Shown piece after piece: positions 2,162-27,988 of a stretch of DNA of 27,988 nucleotides (within the stretch, counting starts at the first letter, position 1; every line of letters starts with the position of its first letter). The notes below the pieces were generated by a model. The model saw only the letters and a list, made by a program, of their open reading frames with translations, searched no databases and was not told where the DNA came from. Where the stretch lies: positions 1-27,988 of the IMG/VR virus record IMGVR_UViG_3300049846_000112; one strand, given 5' to 3'. The translations under genes and the position numbers were made by a program. Origin of the DNA: a virus.

Positions 2162-2225
2162 GTCGGTGTAAAATTATGTGAGCGGCGTGCGCCAACACCC
2201 GCCCCGACCACTTTGCACGCAAGTG

Positions 2226-2738
2226 ATGATCAAGTTTAATCCGTTGCCTCCTATTGAGGAACTTCGCAACCTGCTGGAACTGTCCATCGAATCGCCTACG
2301 GGGCTCAAGTGGCGGAATAACGGACCGGGAATAAGGCAAAACAGGGTAGCCGGTTGGTGGAAAGAAGGCGAGTGGGGGAAAATACGTATCGCTGGGAAGT
2401 ACTACAAAACTCACAGAATCGTGTGGTTTCTGCACACAGGCGAGGATCCGGGCAATAACCTAATCGACCACATCAATAGAAAACCGCACGACAACAGAGT
2501 CGAAAATTTGCGCTTAGTTAAACATGGCGAAAATCGGTATCACAGCAGTACTGACAAAAATGCAACGGGCTACAGAGGCGTGACAAAGCTGCAGCGATGC
2601 GCCAGATGGTCAGCGCACATTAAAAAAGACGGGAAAAATTATTACTTAGGATGCTTTGACTCTCCTGCAAAGGCACACGAGGCTTATCTGAAAGCGTGCC
2701 AAGAGTTGTATGGGTATAATCCCGGCACGCTGACTTGA
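2226..2738 (+). CDS. HNH endonuclease with AP2-like DNA-binding domain
   Basis: The 170-residue product has an HNH nuclease core (THRIVWFLHTGE, LIDHINRKPHDNRVENLRLV; the IDHIN histidine and DNRVENLR asparagines are family hallmarks). It then has an AP2-like DNA-binding module at about residues 115-165 (GYRGVTK, WSAHIKKDGKNYYLGCFDS, AHEAY). Such genes are selfish homing-type elements in phages. I use the ATG at 2226; a GTG at 2178 would add 16 residues that look unlike protein. It is on the plus strand, against its neighbours, and runs convergently into the gene ending at 2745. That orientation suggests an independent insertion with its own promoter, which I could not identify. Confidence 0.85.
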   Translation: MIKFNPLPPIEELRNLLELSIESPTGLKWRNNGPGIRQNRVAGWWKEGEWGKIRIAGKYYKTHRIVWFLHTGEDPGNNLIDHINRKPHDNRVENLRLVKHGENRYHSSTDKNATGYRGVTKLQRCARWSAHIKKDGKNYYLGCFDSPAKAHEAYLKACQELYGYNPGTLT

Positions 2739-4013: not shown

Positions 4014-4559
4014 TTAGCTCACCTCCTGAGGGGCATAGTAGGAAAATTCTTTGTGCAGAGCAAGCGAAGCCTGCTGGTACGCCTTGGCCGCATCGTCGAC
4101 AGACTTGAAATAACCAAGATATTTCCTTTTGTTGTTGTACCGTATAATTGCAGCATAATTGCCGGTATGAACTTTAATAACGCCTTTTGGCAGATCACGC
4201 GATTTTGTCGGTTTACGGTTCTGCATATTTTGAGTCTTGGTTGCTAGCCGTAAATTGCCAATTTCATTATTGGCGCGGTTGTTGTCGATGTGATCAATTT
4301 GCATTGTCGGCCATTCACCGTGCGTGAAATACCAGACAAGATGATGCGCTTTTAGCATCCGACGTGGCTTGGTGCTGGTACGGCAAATCATGTAGCCATT
4401 GGACTGCAGGCCGCAATAAATAGGATCACCAGCCTGAATACCCTTGGACAAACCATCCCGGATCCAAATCAACACGCCATCGTCGTTCATGCCCCAAGAG
4501 GAGTCGATCCACTCCATGATTTCGGGCGTTGGCTTTTTAGGAGTATCGTGCGTGCTCAT
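4014..4559 (-). CDS. HNH endonuclease with AP2-like domain, embedded in tail operon
   Basis: The 181-residue protein has the HNH core at about residues 60-125 (LKAHHLVWYFTHGEWP, IDHIDNNRANNEIGNLRLAT) and an AP2-like segment near 130-170 (YAAIIRYNNKRKYLGYFKS, DDAAKAY). It is related in plan to the plus-strand HNH gene at 2226-2738. Unlike that copy it is co-oriented with the tail genes. It overlaps the upstream gene by ATGA and abuts the fibre start with no gap, and its last bases supply the fibre ribosome binding site. It is probably a homing endonuclease that settled without disturbing tail expression. Confidence 0.87.
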   Translation of the reverse strand: MSTHDTPKKPTPEIMEWIDSSWGMNDDGVLIWIRDGLSKGIQAGDPIYCGLQSNGYMICRTSTKPRRMLKAHHLVWYFTHGEWPTMQIDHIDNNRANNEIGNLRLATKTQNMQNRKPTKSRDLPKGVIKVHTGNYAAIIRYNNKRKYLGYFKSVDDAAKAYQQASLALHKEFSYYAPQEVS

Positions 4560-21891: not shown

Positions 21892-23337
21892 TCATGCTGG
21901 GATAACGCCTTCATCTTCTGGTTCTGCAGATTGTTCTGGGATTCCAGGAATGGCAGCAGGTTCTGGTGTTGGCATCTCGATGTATCCACCAGCCTGAGTG
22001 GATTCGATCTCTTCCTCCACGTCAAACTCATCACCAAGGACTTCACCTTGATAAAGCTGATCAAGGAGAGTTTTTTGAGTGATCGTGCCAGCGGTGTAGA
22101 GCTGCAGAAGTGACTGAATCTCTTGAGGATCAAGACGAGCCCCCAAGAAGTCACGATTAACGTAGCTGCTACCCACATCAACAATATTGAGATAGCTCGC
22201 GTGATAAGCAAGGCAGTTGTCAATGAGATCCTGCATGTTTTGGGCAATGACCATCATGGTGCTATCACCCTGACTGCGGTCAATGCGTTTGGCTTCTGCG
22301 GTTTCGGCTGAGAGCTTTTGACCAAGAACAGCGGATAGACCAAGTTCATTGATCTGATAGGCGATCTGCTCAAGACGCTTGAATTGCGCTTCAAAGCTCT
22401 TGCCATCAGGCTCGATGTACTCTGCCCTGCCTTCTGCCGGGAAAGCAATAGCTTCGCCAGGACCAGCCGAGACCTCTTCAGCCGAAGAGGGGAAACCAAA
22501 GAACGCCAGCATCGGCACTGCAGAGATGTGCAGTTGATTGTCGAGGTCGCTTTGGATCTGATACGCCTTGAGGTTTAGCTCAGCGATGTCCTCCAATGGC
22601 GGGCGTGATTCCATGAAGTTCACGCGGTTGGAATAGGCGACAGCAAACGGGATTTGATCCAGCGTGGTGATGCCACTGTCATGGATCTCAAGCTGCCCGT
22701 TTTTGCCCATGCGGTGAATCTCGAAAGCACCAGGCGTTAGCACACGCACCTGTTCGACTTCCTTCTCGCCGTAGTCACCATCGGGCACGATGACCTTTTC
22801 AAGGAGGCGAAGCTGACTGAGCTTTTGAGCACCATCGCGCATTTCAGTACGCCAGCCAAGGATCTCGCGTGGGGTATAGCTTGCCCAATAAGGACGACCT
22901 TGCTCTCCGGCTGCAGGGGCATCTACTAGAACGCCGACATGCCCGTAGCGGACCATCTTGCGAGCGGTTTCGTAGGTCCAGACGTTGAGATCGTTGCCCA
23001 TGAGGTCAACGTCAAAGAGCTGTTCGCGCACGATGTCAGATACATCGTTAAGCCTGACTGGCTTACGGGTCAACATGCCAGCGAGCATCCGCTCAAGGCG
23101 CTGGTAATAAGGCGGGCAAACGGAACGAGCAAGCCTGTTGTCGTAGGACTCGTCCAGTTCTCGCGGTTCTTGTGGAAGGTAACGCCGATGGCGACGGCGC
23201 AGCTCGTAGGTGCCACCGATCAGATCTTCAATGAGGACCCAATGCGGTTCTTGATTGAGCCAAGCGGAATTGGGATCATTGACCTGCGCGACGCGACTGG
23301 TCAGCTGACGGTCGTAATGAGCGAAGCCGGAGTACAC
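21892..23337 (-). CDS. Portal protein, DUF4055 type, 481 aa
   Basis: The portal forms the dodecameric DNA gate and binds terminase. The sequence fits the DUF4055 portal family: an early RRRHRRYLPQEPRELDESYD with NRLARSVCPPYYQRLERMLA and GMLTRKPV, a middle YGHVGVLVDAPA and TPREILGWR, and a late RPPLEDIAELNLKAYQIQSD followed by LGQKLSAETAEAKRID. A C-terminal acidic Pro-rich tail ends it. Start is a GTG at 23337, 29 bases after the AbrB-like gene. Length is normal for the family. Confidence 0.92.
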   Translation of the reverse strand: MYSGFAHYDRQLTSRVAQVNDPNSAWLNQEPHWVLIEDLIGGTYELRRRHRRYLPQEPRELDESYDNRLARSVCPPYYQRLERMLAGMLTRKPVRLNDVSDIVREQLFDVDLMGNDLNVWTYETARKMVRYGHVGVLVDAPAAGEQGRPYWASYTPREILGWRTEMRDGAQKLSQLRLLEKVIVPDGDYGEKEVEQVRVLTPGAFEIHRMGKNGQLEIHDSGITTLDQIPFAVAYSNRVNFMESRPPLEDIAELNLKAYQIQSDLDNQLHISAVPMLAFFGFPSSAEEVSAGPGEAIAFPAEGRAEYIEPDGKSFEAQFKRLEQIAYQINELGLSAVLGQKLSAETAEAKRIDRSQGDSTMMVIAQNMQDLIDNCLAYHASYLNIVDVGSSYVNRDFLGARLDPQEIQSLLQLYTAGTITQKTLLDQLYQGEVLGDEFDVEEEIESTQAGGYIEMPTPEPAAIPGIPEQSAEPEDEGVIPA

Positions 23338-23892: not shown

Positions 23893-25242
23893 TCAATATA
23901 GCCTAATCCCAGTGGACCTACCAGCGCTAGCGTGTAGCGGGTTGAACTCACGCCAGATGAGGTATCCAAGGGCATCATTCATGTGGTCATGCCCAGAGTC
24001 CTTATCAGGGTCACCCTTTTCGGTGTAACACTGAAGCTCCAGGCATTCGATCATGCGCTTGCAGCTTGCATTGATCTGCAGCCTGACTTGTCCCTTGCCG
24101 TTTTCAAGTAGCGCCTGCACGGCTGAAACCCTGTCACGCACTGGCGGGTTAGCGCGTGGCGATTGGTTTGCCATGCCATAGGACTCCAGGATCTGGATGT
24201 CGGTTTGACTGGCGTTTGTGCTGCGGTTGCCGCCGGAGGCGTCAGGGTAGACGTAGATTCTGCGGTCTGGATAACGCGCTTTGATCTGCTGCGCGAGGCT
24301 ATCGGTGTCGTGAGCACCGCTGATCTCGTCGATCACGAACAGCGTGTTGTTCAGCTTGACACCGATGACAGCAGACATGTTGCCAACGTTGAAGTCAACG
24401 CCAACGCGTAGCGGTTCGCGCTCGGTGTCTGGCAGCTTGCTGATGACGTGCTTGGTGCGATCGAAGCGGTCGTAGACGGTGCCGGTGGTGAGGTTAACGA
24501 ACTCGCCGTCTAGGTAAGCCTTCAGCAGTGTTGGGTCGTAGTTCGCTTCAAGACGCTCGATAAAGTCAGGCGGAAGGTGTGGGTTATCGACGGATCGCAT
24601 CTTGATCAGTTTGCGATCCTGTCTCGTTTGAGCGTCCTCGCTGCCGAAGGTAGTCCACATCCAGCGGAAGCCTTCAGGCGTGGAGGCTGCGCCGAATTGA
24701 CGGACGTTGCCGGAGCGTAGACGACCAAGGATTTTGGGAAACGCCTTGTTTGCGATGGCAGGCGTCACGGTATCAATCTCGTCTGCTAGTACCCACGCAA
24801 GGTTCAGACCGATAATGCGTGACCAGTTCTCGAAGCTACGGCACAAGATTTTCGTATCACCGCCTGGGAGGTGGAGCATGTATTCCGGCAATGGTGATGC
24901 ACGGAAGGTGTAGGGGATGGCGTAATACTCCAGGAAATCCTCGAAGTCGTTTTGCCAGATGTCACGGATTAGGGGTCCGGTTGGTTCCATGACGCAACCG
25001 ATGAAGCCTTGGTTAGCAGCAGCGAGGGTGACTGCTTTTGCAGCTAGGGCACGGGTTTTACCTGCGCCGTAACCTGCGCTGATGCCGATGATTTGGGTTT
25101 GGTTATCAGCTACGAAAGCGAGCTGCCCAGGATGGAGGTCAGCATGAATACGCTGCAGCAGTTGGTCGGTATCGATTAGCTCGCCGAAATGGTTGAGCTG
25201 TTGGAGGACATGACCTTCTGGCGCTGCAGTGAGGATGCTCAC
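23893..25242 (-). CDS. terL: Terminase large subunit
   Basis: The 449-residue packaging motor has a Walker A motif SAGYGAGKT ending near residue 63 and a Walker B VLADEID near residues 151-157 with the catalytic Glu. The C-terminal RNase H-like nuclease has acidic residues in VGVDFNVGNM (D283), VIDEIS (D305), YPDAS (D334) and HDHMNDALGY (D423). It translocates DNA into the head and cuts concatemers. The start is a GTG overlapping the small subunit stop (GTGA). Length and motif order are normal for T4/PBSX-type terminases. Confidence 0.95.
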   Translation of the reverse strand: MSILTAAPEGHVLQQLNHFGELIDTDQLLQRIHADLHPGQLAFVADNQTQIIGISAGYGAGKTRALAAKAVTLAAANQGFIGCVMEPTGPLIRDIWQNDFEDFLEYYAIPYTFRASPLPEYMLHLPGGDTKILCRSFENWSRIIGLNLAWVLADEIDTVTPAIANKAFPKILGRLRSGNVRQFGAASTPEGFRWMWTTFGSEDAQTRQDRKLIKMRSVDNPHLPPDFIERLEANYDPTLLKAYLDGEFVNLTTGTVYDRFDRTKHVISKLPDTEREPLRVGVDFNVGNMSAVIGVKLNNTLFVIDEISGAHDTDSLAQQIKARYPDRRIYVYPDASGGNRSTNASQTDIQILESYGMANQSPRANPPVRDRVSAVQALLENGKGQVRLQINASCKRMIECLELQCYTEKGDPDKDSGHDHMNDALGYLIWREFNPLHASAGRSTGIRLY

Positions 25243-25562
25243 GAGCAGAGCTGCGCGAGTTTGGCAGCGGTGTTAATGGCACCGAGGGCGATGTGATATT
25301 GCCCAGCACGGCGTGCCTCCATTTGGAGTGTGGAGCACTGTGAGAGGAGATCAGCGATCATCTGGGGGCGTTCGATGTCCCAGTCAGCCTTGAGTTGTTG
25401 TCTAGCGAGTTCAAGGTATTTATCGCAGGAGCGTTCACCAACCCCCCAGTTTTCAGCAGCGAAACGAACGCAGTCTGAGCGACGCCCACCGTTAGCGATG
25501 ATGCGAGCGAAGCGTTGAGCGCGGAGTTCAGTTTCAGCTTTTGTGCCGCGATGACCTGCCAT
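25239..25562 (-). CDS. terS: Terminase small subunit (putative)
   Basis: The 107-residue protein is helical throughout (GTKAETELRAQRFARIIANG, GRRSDCVRFAAENWGVGERS, CDKYLELARQQLKADWDIER). It has a helix-turn-helix-like N-terminal half with WGVGERSCDKYL as the probable recognition helix and an oligomerisation helix behind it. Its direct coupling to the large subunit by GTGA, its size and its fold pattern support TerS. It would recognise the packaging start on phage DNA. Confidence 0.87.
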   Translation of the reverse strand: MAGHRGTKAETELRAQRFARIIANGGRRSDCVRFAAENWGVGERSCDKYLELARQQLKADWDIERPQMIADLLSQCSTLQMEARRAGQYHIALGAINTAAKLAQLCS

Positions 25563-25608: not shown

Positions 25609-26469
25609 TTATTGACGGCGATATTTTTCGTGAATAATTTTAGGGCAGACTTTATTCCAGTCGTGTGTGTGATGAAGGCGAGGGTTTTTATGTCCCATAA
25701 GTTTGATGTAAGTCGATGACGGAGAGATCATGACGGTGTAGAAGGATTTTACATAAGTTCCATTTTCGCGATAGGCTTCGGTGATGCCGCCTTTATTTTG
25801 CTGAGTCATTGCCTGTGTTAGCTGGATCTGGCAATAGGTAAAGAATAGATGTCCAGTTGCGCCGTGAGCAATGTAGGTGTTTACATCGTCGTTAAATCTG
25901 CCAATGAACTTAAAGGGTCTTTGATTATCACAGAAGAAGGAATTCATTGTTTTACGCAGGACGCTTCTAGCCTTTTCGGAGCTAGTGACGTAATCACCAC
26001 CTTGAGAGAAGGCGATGCTGGAGACGGATGGCGTTTTTTCCATGAACTCAGCCATGCCATCGAAAATGATGTCAAGGCTTTCAATTCGGAAGCAGGAATA
26101 TTTTATGGGTTTATCAGGTTCTTTTCTGCCTATGCGTCTGTAGGCAAAGTAGCTGTAGTCATCATCAAGCTGACAGAAATACCTACAGTTGACCTGTTTA
26201 GATAAATCCCAGCAGGCATTGCGAGCCCAAAGTGGAGTGCGTCTATCTGTGGAAGCATCGCAGGAGTCAGTTGTTTCCGCAATTTTTGATTTAGAGAATA
26301 CTAAGACACGGTCGCCATAGTTTGCTTTGTATTCATCAACTGTTGGATCTTCATCGTCTACGACGATGTAACACTTGCCTGTGTAACCAGATGCCTGCAG
26401 TGTGTCAAATGTCTTGACGTTATTTGGGCGACGGTTTGAAAGGATAAAAACGCAAAAATCTTCACGCAT
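25609..26469 (-). CDS. TET-associated-type glycosyltransferase (TAGT-like), putative DNA hypermodification
   Basis: The 286-residue protein opens REDFCVFILSNRRPNNVKTF, then SGYTGKCYIVVDDEDPTVDE, with a DXD-like metal/nucleotide-sugar motif CQLDDDYSYF near residue 100 and a late RRPFKFIGRFNDDVN-like block (QRPFKFIGRFNDDVNTYIAH). The C-terminal region ends KNPRLHHTHDWNKVCPKIIH. This pattern fits the GT-A-like glycosyltransferases that phages encode beside TET/JBP-type oxygenases and ParB-like proteins, where they add sugars to modified bases. It is coupled to the ParB-like gene by an 8-base overlap. No TET/JBP gene lies in the window, so the acceptor and chemistry are inferred. Confidence 0.85.
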   Translation of the reverse strand: MREDFCVFILSNRRPNNVKTFDTLQASGYTGKCYIVVDDEDPTVDEYKANYGDRVLVFSKSKIAETTDSCDASTDRRTPLWARNACWDLSKQVNCRYFCQLDDDYSYFAYRRIGRKEPDKPIKYSCFRIESLDIIFDGMAEFMEKTPSVSSIAFSQGGDYVTSSEKARSVLRKTMNSFFCDNQRPFKFIGRFNDDVNTYIAHGATGHLFFTYCQIQLTQAMTQQNKGGITEAYRENGTYVKSFYTVMISPSSTYIKLMGHKNPRLHHTHDWNKVCPKIIHEKYRRQ

Positions 26470-27229
26470 GAGGACGGTCCTTTTTGAAGGCTTCTTCTAC
26501 GTGTTTATCAAGACGGACAAAGCCATTTTCGATAGCCTGCTCAAAATCAATGATGACGAGAGCCGACTGTTCAAAAAGTTCCTGGACTTCTTTGGATGCT
26601 GTTGCGTAGAAGTCAGCAATTTTGCTGTAGTTAAACGCTGTGTGGCGATGAGCTGCTGAAGTTAGGAAAGCTCTTACGTCGGAAGGGATGTCAGCAGTTT
26701 CAATATCAGCTAGGAGCTGATTTGTCTTGGTTGCATCGTAAAGGTGCTCGGGTTTGTGCTGTGTGCCGGATGGGTCATAAATGGGGGCAATGGTTTTGTT
26801 TGTATATGGGCTGTTTTCGTCTAGCTCTTCCTCGATTCCGATTAGCTCATTGAGTTCGCTTTTGTCGAACCAGGTACTGACATCATGTTCCTCGCTGAGC
26901 TGATGGAGCATGGCACCATCCCACTCGCTGAGATCGCTGGTGCGGTTATCAGCCAGGGCGAGACCTACTTTTTCGTCTTCTGTAAGTCCGGCTCGTCTGA
27001 CAGCAATGAGTTCATCACCGTCAGCATCGATGATGCGAACATTTTTGATGCCAGCAGCTTTAGCGCCCTCGATGGTTCCGTTGCCAGCAAGGATCCTATT
27101 TTCTTCGTCGATGACGATACTGCGTGCTGCACCGTAACGCTTAAGTGATTCTGCGATTAACATCGCAGAGCGGTCAGTGCGTTTGCGAGCGTTCTTGTGG
27201 TCGTGCTTGAGGTTGTTAATTGACGTCAT
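26462..27229 (-). CDS. ParB/Srx-like protein linked to DNA modification
   Basis: Residues about 1-85 form a ParB/sulfiredoxin-like domain: NNLKHDHKNARKRTDRSAML, SLKRYGAARSIVIDEENRIL, then AGNGTIEGAKAAGIKNVRII and DELIAVRRAGLT, followed by LALADNRTSDLSEWD. The GNGTIEGAKAAG motif replaces the GERR box of plasmid partition ParB proteins and is seen in phage ParB-like proteins near modification genes. A C-terminal domain (PSGTQHKPEHLYDATKTNQL, SAAHRHTAFNYSKIADFY, IDFEQAIENGFVRL) is specific to this phage subfamily. Its role is probably DNA modification or nuclease-like, not partition; the activity is unproven. Confidence 0.87.
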   Translation of the reverse strand: MTSINNLKHDHKNARKRTDRSAMLIAESLKRYGAARSIVIDEENRILAGNGTIEGAKAAGIKNVRIIDADGDELIAVRRAGLTEDEKVGLALADNRTSDLSEWDGAMLHQLSEEHDVSTWFDKSELNELIGIEEELDENSPYTNKTIAPIYDPSGTQHKPEHLYDATKTNQLLADIETADIPSDVRAFLTSAAHRHTAFNYSKIADFYATASKEVQELFEQSALVIIDFEQAIENGFVRLDKHVEEAFKKDRPHA

Positions 27230-27455: not shown

Positions 27456-27686
27456 TCATTGGTGTGGCTTAAAAGCTAGGGCTTTGAGCTGATTGATCTT
27501 GGGTTCGACCAGATGATGCGAAGAAACTACGCCACAGTTTGCGCCAATGCAAACGCGAACGCAACCATCATCGAGCGTTTCCAAGGTCGGTTGGACAGAG
27601 GAAGCGGCTGATTCGACCAAGTTGTTCAGGCGTTGACGGTGGCTGTGGGTCATTGGCTTGGCGATAAAGGGCGAGGTAGTAGTCAT
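27456..27686 (-). CDS. Small hypothetical protein, up to 76 aa
   Basis: The frame starts at an ATG overlapping the ribbon-helix-helix stop (ATGA). A second ATG at 27653 would give 65 residues (MTHSHRQRLNNLVESAASSV, QPTLETLDDGCVRVCIGANC, GVVSSHHLVEPKINQLKALA). The part after the second ATG looks the more protein-like. It overlaps another small open frame (27568-27735) by about 86-119 bases. Function unknown. Confidence 0.55.
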   Translation of the reverse strand: MTTTSPFIAKPMTHSHRQRLNNLVESAASSVQPTLETLDDGCVRVCIGANCGVVSSHHLVEPKINQLKALAFKPHQ

Positions 27687-27735
27687 CCCACAGTTTGAGG
27701 AGGGTTTGGATGTCTTGATTGGTTGGGACTGGCAT
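27568..27735 (-). CDS. Possible overlapping small protein, 55 aa
   Basis: From an ATG at 27735 the frame reads MPVPTNQDIQTLLKLWDDYY, LALYRQANDPQPPSTPEQLG, ending SRFLCPTDLGNAR. The helical, aromatic-rich first half looks coded, yet the frame overlaps both its neighbours: the end of the ribbon-helix-helix gene and much of the ORF ending at 27456. No Shine-Dalgarno is seen. It may be a real overlapping gene or a shadow. Confidence 0.35.
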   Translation of the reverse strand: MPVPTNQDIQTLLKLWDDYYLALYRQANDPQPPSTPEQLGRISRFLCPTDLGNAR

Positions 27736-27988
27736 AGACGGAGACAAGAACGGAGGCTGTGATGGCTTCAACGACTGGACGTGAGCAAGCACCGGAAGAA
27801 GCCCTGAGAGCGGCTGTAACGGCGTCTTGGTACTGGCGTAGGGAAATGGTCTCAGAAGAGCCTGACGACTCCTGGGAGCCCACAGAGGGGTCGCCTAGCG
27901 CACGGAGGCGTATGAGCTGCGAACGGTTGAGGTTCAGGGCAGCAGCCTGACGGTCGAGGTGCTCGGTCTCCTCAGGGGAGAGGTAGAC
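27683..27988 (-). CDS. Partial ribbon-helix-helix DNA-binding protein, cut by right window edge
   Basis: The frame is open to the window edge; the visible 101 residues begin VYLSPEETEHLDRQAAALNL, NRSQLIRLRALG, a CopG/Arc-type ribbon-helix-helix pattern (a strand, then two helices with NRSQLIR). A Ser/Gly linker follows, then SLRQYQDAVTAALRASSGAC and PVVEAITASVLVSVYA, a conserved-looking C-terminal helix. The N-terminus lies outside the window. It heads the leftward gene row and may be a repressor or a DNA-binding accessory protein; the exact role is unknown. Confidence 0.68.
   Translation of the reverse strand, partial: VYLSPEETEHLDRQAAALNLNRSQLIRLRALGDPSVGSQESSGSSETISLRQYQDAVTAALRASSGACSRPVVEAITASVLVSVYASPNQSRHPNPPQTVG

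Follow-up and report, generated by a model that had tools for sequence, protein, structure and literature searches.

In phages, loci for DNA hypermodification reportedly described by Iyer et al. in 2013 combine TET/JBP and TAGT genes with a gene for a ParB-like protein. In T2 and T6, TAGT (PF20691) acts on glucosylated hmC (PMC13216743). A 2026 survey found TAGT homologues without an alpha- or beta-GT in 288 of 753 phage genomes and referred to them as 'potentially novel transferases' (PMC13216743), and a 2025 study reported that ParB-type (ParBc) proteins adjoin phage DNA-modifying enzymes, for a reason left unexplained (PMC12783734). In the literature consulted, mostly as titles and abstracts, none of the papers connected ParB with TAGT and terminase; subscription papers, for example Iyer et al. 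2013, may describe part of this arrangement.

The window analysed here is the whole of an IMG/VR virus record (IMGVR_UViG_3300049846_000112), a linear fragment of 27,988 nucleotides; genes further right lie outside the record. Its major capsid protein is 93 per cent identical to that of Synechococcus phage KBS-S-2A, and its portal protein (DUF4055; 21892–23337, minus strand; phrog_145, 4e-111) is 78 per cent identical. An earlier note on this DNA had called the virus a cyanophage, which these similarities bear out; it is a Synechococcus-type siphovirus. Four genes follow one another on the minus strand: a ParB-like ORF of 255 amino acids (26462–27229), which includes AGNGTIEGAKAAG; the TAGT gene (25609–26469; 286 amino acids, pI 8.7); a putative TerS of 107 amino acids (25239–25562), assigned by position and matching phrog_34910 (unknown function); and TerL (23893–25242; Terminase_6N/6C, phrog_2). 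The ParB-like protein consists of an N-terminal ParB/Srx-like domain (aa 1–132; 26834–27229, minus strand) and a C-terminal domain, the CTD (aa 139–255; 26465–26815, minus strand), recognized by alignments, linkage and co-variation.

The position of the pair directly upstream of terminase agrees with the earlier note, and direct reading bore out its further description of a ParB/Srx-like ORF overlapping by 8 nt (26462–26469) a glycosyltransferase with the motifs VVDDEDP and QLDDDY. This overlap of the ParB-CTD stop and the TAGT start is the commonest spacing among the loci compared (−7 in the measure used; 143 loci) and probably couples translation of the two genes. Chance does not explain the pair: purifying selection acts on each of its ORFs (dN/dS 0.02–0.10), and it is present in hundreds of contigs. 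A scan for promoters and terminators gave no signal exceeding chance. At the right window edge, a ribbon-helix-helix/NikA-like ORF (27683–27988, minus strand) is truncated. Two HNH/AP2-like homing endonuclease ORFs (2178–2738, plus strand; 4014–4559, minus strand) were recognized by eye amid the tail genes. We read the two overlapping genes as a self-contained phage DNA-glycosylation module, in which no TET/JBP oxygenase or hydroxymethylase is involved, and estimate the probability of this reading at about 0.7.

The TAGT protein matches PF20691 with an E value of 3e-31 (Pfam; 109.4 bits, curated cut-off 27.5) and phrog_842 with 6e-68. Its AF2 model is of high confidence (pLDDT 91.6), and the best fold matches in the PDB (Foldseek) are the GT2/GT-A enzymes SpsA, SunS and GnT-I. 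The motif QLDDDY (aa 100–105; 26155–26172, minus strand) contains the predicted DxD motif for binding of metal and nucleotide-sugar; residues D41, D103, D104, H266 and H267 are invariant in an alignment of 79 sequences. By family and by predicted fold the protein is a GT-A glycosyltransferase; metal-dependent transfer of sugar onto phage DNA, with a nucleotide-sugar as donor, would be its expected activity. The TAGT of T6 is remote: a profile of the window subfamily gives no match to it at E ≤ 10. Matches of TAGT and CTD profiles to PDB sequences were all spurious (flagellin, Spindlin, armadillo designs) and were discarded.

The association of TAGT with the CTD was followed in 290 loci (213 with distinct TAGTs) from viral TAGT scans, an independent CTD scan, at least eight bacterial contigs and some phage records. 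The CTD gene stands directly before TAGT in 273 of the 285 loci with both; in the remaining 12, they are separated by one or a few genes. The intervening genes include those for a histidine phosphatase–cytidylyltransferase fusion, an epimerase-like protein and a radical-SAM-like protein. Among the 290 loci there is no case of a CTD without TAGT, and TAGT occurs without a CTD only in L045, L046 and L256, which are contig ends, and in L206, the frameshifted TAGT of phage LL-Ku. A natural CTD–TAGT fusion was not found among the collected loci. In 24 CTD proteins there is almost no sequence N-terminal to the CTD, so of the two domains only the ParB domain can be dispensed with; in the pv27-like Vibrio phages the gene before TAGT encodes the CTD alone.

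Sequence distances in 109 loci point the same way. The CTD/TAGT correlation is 0.49 (0.48 given TerL), a value reached in none of 200 permutations, compared with 0.18 for the ParB N-domain and TAGT and about 0.10 for TerL and TAGT, neither of which tracks TAGT. Median identity across these loci is 0.46 for the CTD and 0.48 for TAGT, 0.28 for the ParB domain and 0.16 for TerL. The obligate partner of this TAGT subfamily is the CTD, not the ParB domain; the earlier note overlooked that this is the part of the 'ParB' protein linked to the glycosyltransferase. Frameshifted TAGT genes are present in lytic Lactobacillus delbrueckii phages (L206, 90–938; NC_022762.1, 848–1713). No CTD gene was found beside the frameshifted gene of LL-Ku, which suggests that CTD and TAGT decay together as a module.

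The CTD, of about 115 residues, has no accepted match in the family libraries searched and none to known folds (Foldseek). A weak, recurrent match to Phage_Gene47 (Pfam; L5 gp47), with E values of 0.05–0.17, was under the cut-off and was not accepted. The domain is acidic, with a median pI of 4.6 versus 8.8 for the basic TAGT. Residues Y142, P149, Y151, R195, H196, A205, Y208, E220, D228 and G236 are invariant in a set of 16 sequences. In the predicted structure, the lowest pLDDT values fall in the blocks containing the most conserved segments (57–59 at 131–150; 50–65 at 221–240). Because folding confidence is lowest there, these segments are better regarded as a binding surface than as a preformed active site, and they may be surfaces that fold on a partner. 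The CTD would probably complete its own fold on TAGT, forming a physical complex with it and acting as an obligate acidic subunit or cofactor.

The N-terminal half of the protein is more familiar. As a single sequence, the ParB-like protein had no match in a Pfam search; it matches phrog_620 ('ParB-like') at 1e-32, and a profile of its 108-member family matches structures of Noc, ParB and sulfiredoxin (best 1.3e-12, 7nfu). ParB-CDP structures rank top in Foldseek, weakly (E > 0.001). These matches place the domain in the ParB/Srx superfamily, as had been proposed. Its motif in the window is AGNGT, in which Thr replaces the active-site Arg (GHxR) found in the superfamily. The form GNGT is common to the window, its lineage, and the ParB-methyltransferase and ParB/Mom loci of sister phages; most other members of the family have GHxR or GNxR. 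The role of the active-site Arg in the ParB superfamily has been described, and ParB-like domains can act as nucleases (PMC5512222). Since the Arg of the GxxR motif is absent from GNGT, docking is favoured over cutting, and the ParB domain of the window probably recruits rather than cuts. An apparently unrelated N-domain in L025–L041 was dropped as a category, the sequence on reading resembling a diverged ParB-like domain.

The slot upstream of TerS–TerL was read in comparison loci with a TerL 82–97 per cent identical to that of the window. Sister phages have the same ParB domain (71–81% identical over aa 1–130), with a break at about aa 126–136. The slot carries the ParB domain fused to N6_N4_Mtase (about 16 loci, assigned by similarity, with Pfam confirming the fusion in four), the ParB domain with Mom (three loci of cyanophage relatives: L327, 1684–2577; L368, 3655–4407; L387, 1830–2582; two of the three match PF25680, at 8e-52 and 3e-46), or ParB-CTD with TAGT. 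A single slot thus accommodates exchangeable DNA-modifying enzymes, each accompanied by a ParB domain. As Mom and the N6/N4 methyltransferases work on unmodified polymer DNA, direct action of CTD and TAGT on such DNA is plausible. The ParB/Srx-like domain would then be an interchangeable DNA-docking part, and DNA the likely target of TAGT.

In about 30 loci with another TerS type, the slot holds a sliding-clamp-like gene and ParB is absent. A gene resembling the DNA polymerase III beta-clamp lies in or beside the pre-terminase slot of many relatives (for example L341, 2699–3739; L335, 1373–2413; L321, 3188–4237). The slot of a more distant phage, Prochlorococcus phage MED4-184, contains ParB_N, an FkbM methyltransferase and a Tet_JBP-like protein. 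The last of these is named 'queuine tRNA-ribosyltransferase' (L322, 5130–5915; NC_020847.1, 17129–17914), a label shared by phrog_6059. It has an HxD...H motif and matches Tet_JBP at 3e-8, with 26.8–27.7 bits where the curated cut-off is 34.9. Its name may be wrong and the protein a 2OG-Fe oxygenase from a cassette of ParB, methyltransferase and TET/JBP.

The pair is present in the Lactobacillus phages c5, phiLdb and jlb1, Rac-like phages of E. coli and Salmonella, Nocardia phage NTR1, the archaeal virus HHTV-2, Porphyromonas prophages and T4-like Vibrio phages. Most carriers have the gene order ParB–TAGT–(TerS)–TerL, and in relatives of the window the TerS-like ORF keeps its place after TAGT and before TerL; HHTV-2 has eight genes separating these two. 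A literature search on DNA modification in HHTV-2 brought up nothing on ParB or a glycosyltransferase. Terminase is beside the module in 137 of 213 loci, and other neighbours are DNA polymerase A, SSB and the sliding clamp. From its place in the packaging operon or near replication genes, the module would probably decorate new phage DNA before packaging, most likely to counter host restriction. The family matches, these neighbours and the exchange with methyltransferase and Mom genes behind the same ParB domain all favour the DNA-modification locus proposed in the earlier note.

Sugar-nucleotide genes near the module encode an epimerase (16 loci), a phosphatase–cytidylyltransferase (11 loci), a UDP-Galp mutase and a UDP-sugar dehydrogenase, and some phages have two to five TAGT copies in tandem. 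Both features fit elaborate glycans. In about 11 loci (for example L271, 1419–2387; L246, 5019–6002; L253, 5007–6002) the fusion of histidine phosphatase and cytidylyltransferase lies between CTD and TAGT and may serve the latter by activating some unusual sugar or polyol. A 115-kb phage contig has five tandem TAGT paralogues after a single CTD gene (L276, 3392–8361), an array that may build a multi-sugar chain.

The homologue of the ParB-like gene in E. coli is the Rac prophage gene ynaK. A match to it is present in 1,575 of 5,426 complete genomes of the species, and at least 80 per cent of the ynaK–TAGT locus is covered in at least 887. In K-12, only an 87-aa N-terminal piece of ynaK is left, and after it come ydaY and the remnant of a tape-measure gene in place of TAGT and terminase. 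RefSeq annotates another copy (L298, 5001–5792; NZ_CP033378.1) as incomplete at the C-terminus, where a 263-aa frame is intact, an annotation apparently led astray by the K-12 fragment.

The earlier note linked the pair to loci for TET/JBP oxidation of the base followed by decoration, and membership of such a pathway is not supported. Among 50 records with the pair, some of them IMG/VR records that are perhaps incomplete and some complete relatives as small as 31.8 kb, the profile search found Tet_JBP in none, a C5-methyltransferase (PF00145) in one and a thymidylate-synthase-like gene (PF00303) in one. Controls were positive for PF00145 and PF00303, and the Tet_JBP search was positive in MED4-184, below the curated Pfam cut-off. 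Tet_JBP was also not found within the window, a fragment, and a TET/JBP or hydroxymethylase route could still make 5hmC or 5hmU for TAGT to decorate if the oxygenase or methylase lay outside the fragment or came from the host. The TAGT family is named after that very association, MED4-184 has its ParB, methyltransferase and Tet_JBP-like set in the same slot, and T6 combines TAGT with a hydroxymethylase. Against such a route, the gene lists of complete relatives of 31.8–65 kb show no candidate for TET/JBP, methylase or hydroxymethylase, that of c5 (complete, 31.8 kb) has no methylase or nucleotide enzyme, and no precursor gene was found in the L020 record, whose TAGT is 81 per cent identical to that of the window. 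Supply of 5hmC by hosts as diverse as Lactobacillus, E. coli and Haloarcula is also unlikely, and we consider the route quite improbable. In T6, TAGT adjoins a second gene of the thymidylate-synthase fold (dCMP hydroxymethylase by position) and the CTD is absent; the T4-like Vibrio phage pv27, which does have the CTD, carries a single thymidylate-synthase-like gene. That the CTD replaces a base precursor is not universal, because the Aeh1-type TAGTs (Aeh1, Vibrio 1.076 and 1.124) lack the CTD and Tet_JBP was not found with them.

The CTD probably lets TAGT act on polymer DNA without a 5-hydroxymethyl handle. We give about even odds to a two-gene system with a ParB-docked CTD subunit that glycosylates canonical bases, directly or via a handle installed by the CTD, without TET/JBP, methylase or nucleotide-level hydroxymethylase, and that makes longer sugar chains where TAGTs are in tandem. 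Since canonical bases lack a hydroxyl fit for this, attaching a sugar to them directly would amount to new chemistry. The CTD could itself be the enzyme that installs an acceptor such as a hydroxyl on the canonical base, which TAGT then glycosylates in a new two-step route. It is present where there is no precursor route and absent where a hydroxymethylase exists, is never without TAGT, matches no known fold and has invariant R195, H196, Y208, E220 and D228; however, it is small, acidic and helical, with no recognized metal-binding signature, and its most conserved segments (aa 142–151 and 218–237) have the lowest folding confidence in the monomer. This enzymatic role is unlikely in our judgement, though a serious candidate. 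A non-DNA target (tRNA, a surface polymer, or a protein of the capsid or terminase), with the ParB-like protein unrelated or a chaperone, is suggested by fold relatives that include the peptide S-/O-glycosyltransferases SunS and ColGalT1. It appears improbable given the DNA methyltransferase or Mom carried by the same ParB domain and slot, the basic pI of TAGT, the DNA polymerase, SSB and sliding clamp of other contexts, and the action of the TAGT family on phage DNA in T2/T6 (PMC13216743). Finally, the match to ParB/Noc and the nuclease activity possible in ParB-like domains (PMC5512222) would suit a role in maintaining a prophage, as partition factor or as nicking nuclease, with a glycosyltransferase adjacent by chance. 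We find this highly improbable: the active-site Arg is replaced, the linkage to TAGT spans bacterial and archaeal viruses, and it is the ParB domain that is dispensable and not the CTD.

A ParB domain as swappable docking module, with a CTD partner for such TAGTs, is a likely common answer to both survey puzzles, the transferases without alpha- or beta-GT and the ParBc neighbours. If the self-contained module is confirmed, it offers a route to sugar-modified DNA without a hydroxymethyl precursor, useful for biotechnology and for understanding restriction evasion.

Among the known systems, the T2/T6 beta-glucosyl-HMC-alpha-glucosyltransferase shares PF20691, the GT-A fold and the phage DNA context with the window TAGT; it differs in acting on hmC that already bears a first glucose (PMC13216743), and the T6 gene in adjoining a hydroxymethylase gene and lacking the CTD. 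With the TET/JBP–TAGT loci the window has TAGT and a ParB-like protein in common, whereas its module has the CTD, and TET/JBP, C5-methylase and hydroxymethylase were not found. The CmoX/CmoY carboxymethylcytosine cassettes are similar in the repeated presence of a ParBc protein beside a phage DNA-modification pathway; their chemistry is different, and TAGT or CTD is not reported for them (PMC12783734). The ParB–DNA methyltransferase fusions (phrog_498) and ParB + Mom cassettes have the same ParB domain, slot and type of DNA-modifying cargo, and the window module differs from them in its glycosyltransferase cargo and extra dedicated domain. YnaK, from the Rac prophage of E. coli, is a direct homologue: in contrast to the K-12 remnant, intact copies in other E. 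coli overlap a TAGT gene that in turn precedes terminase, and these ynaK–TAGT loci provide a test bed for the module.
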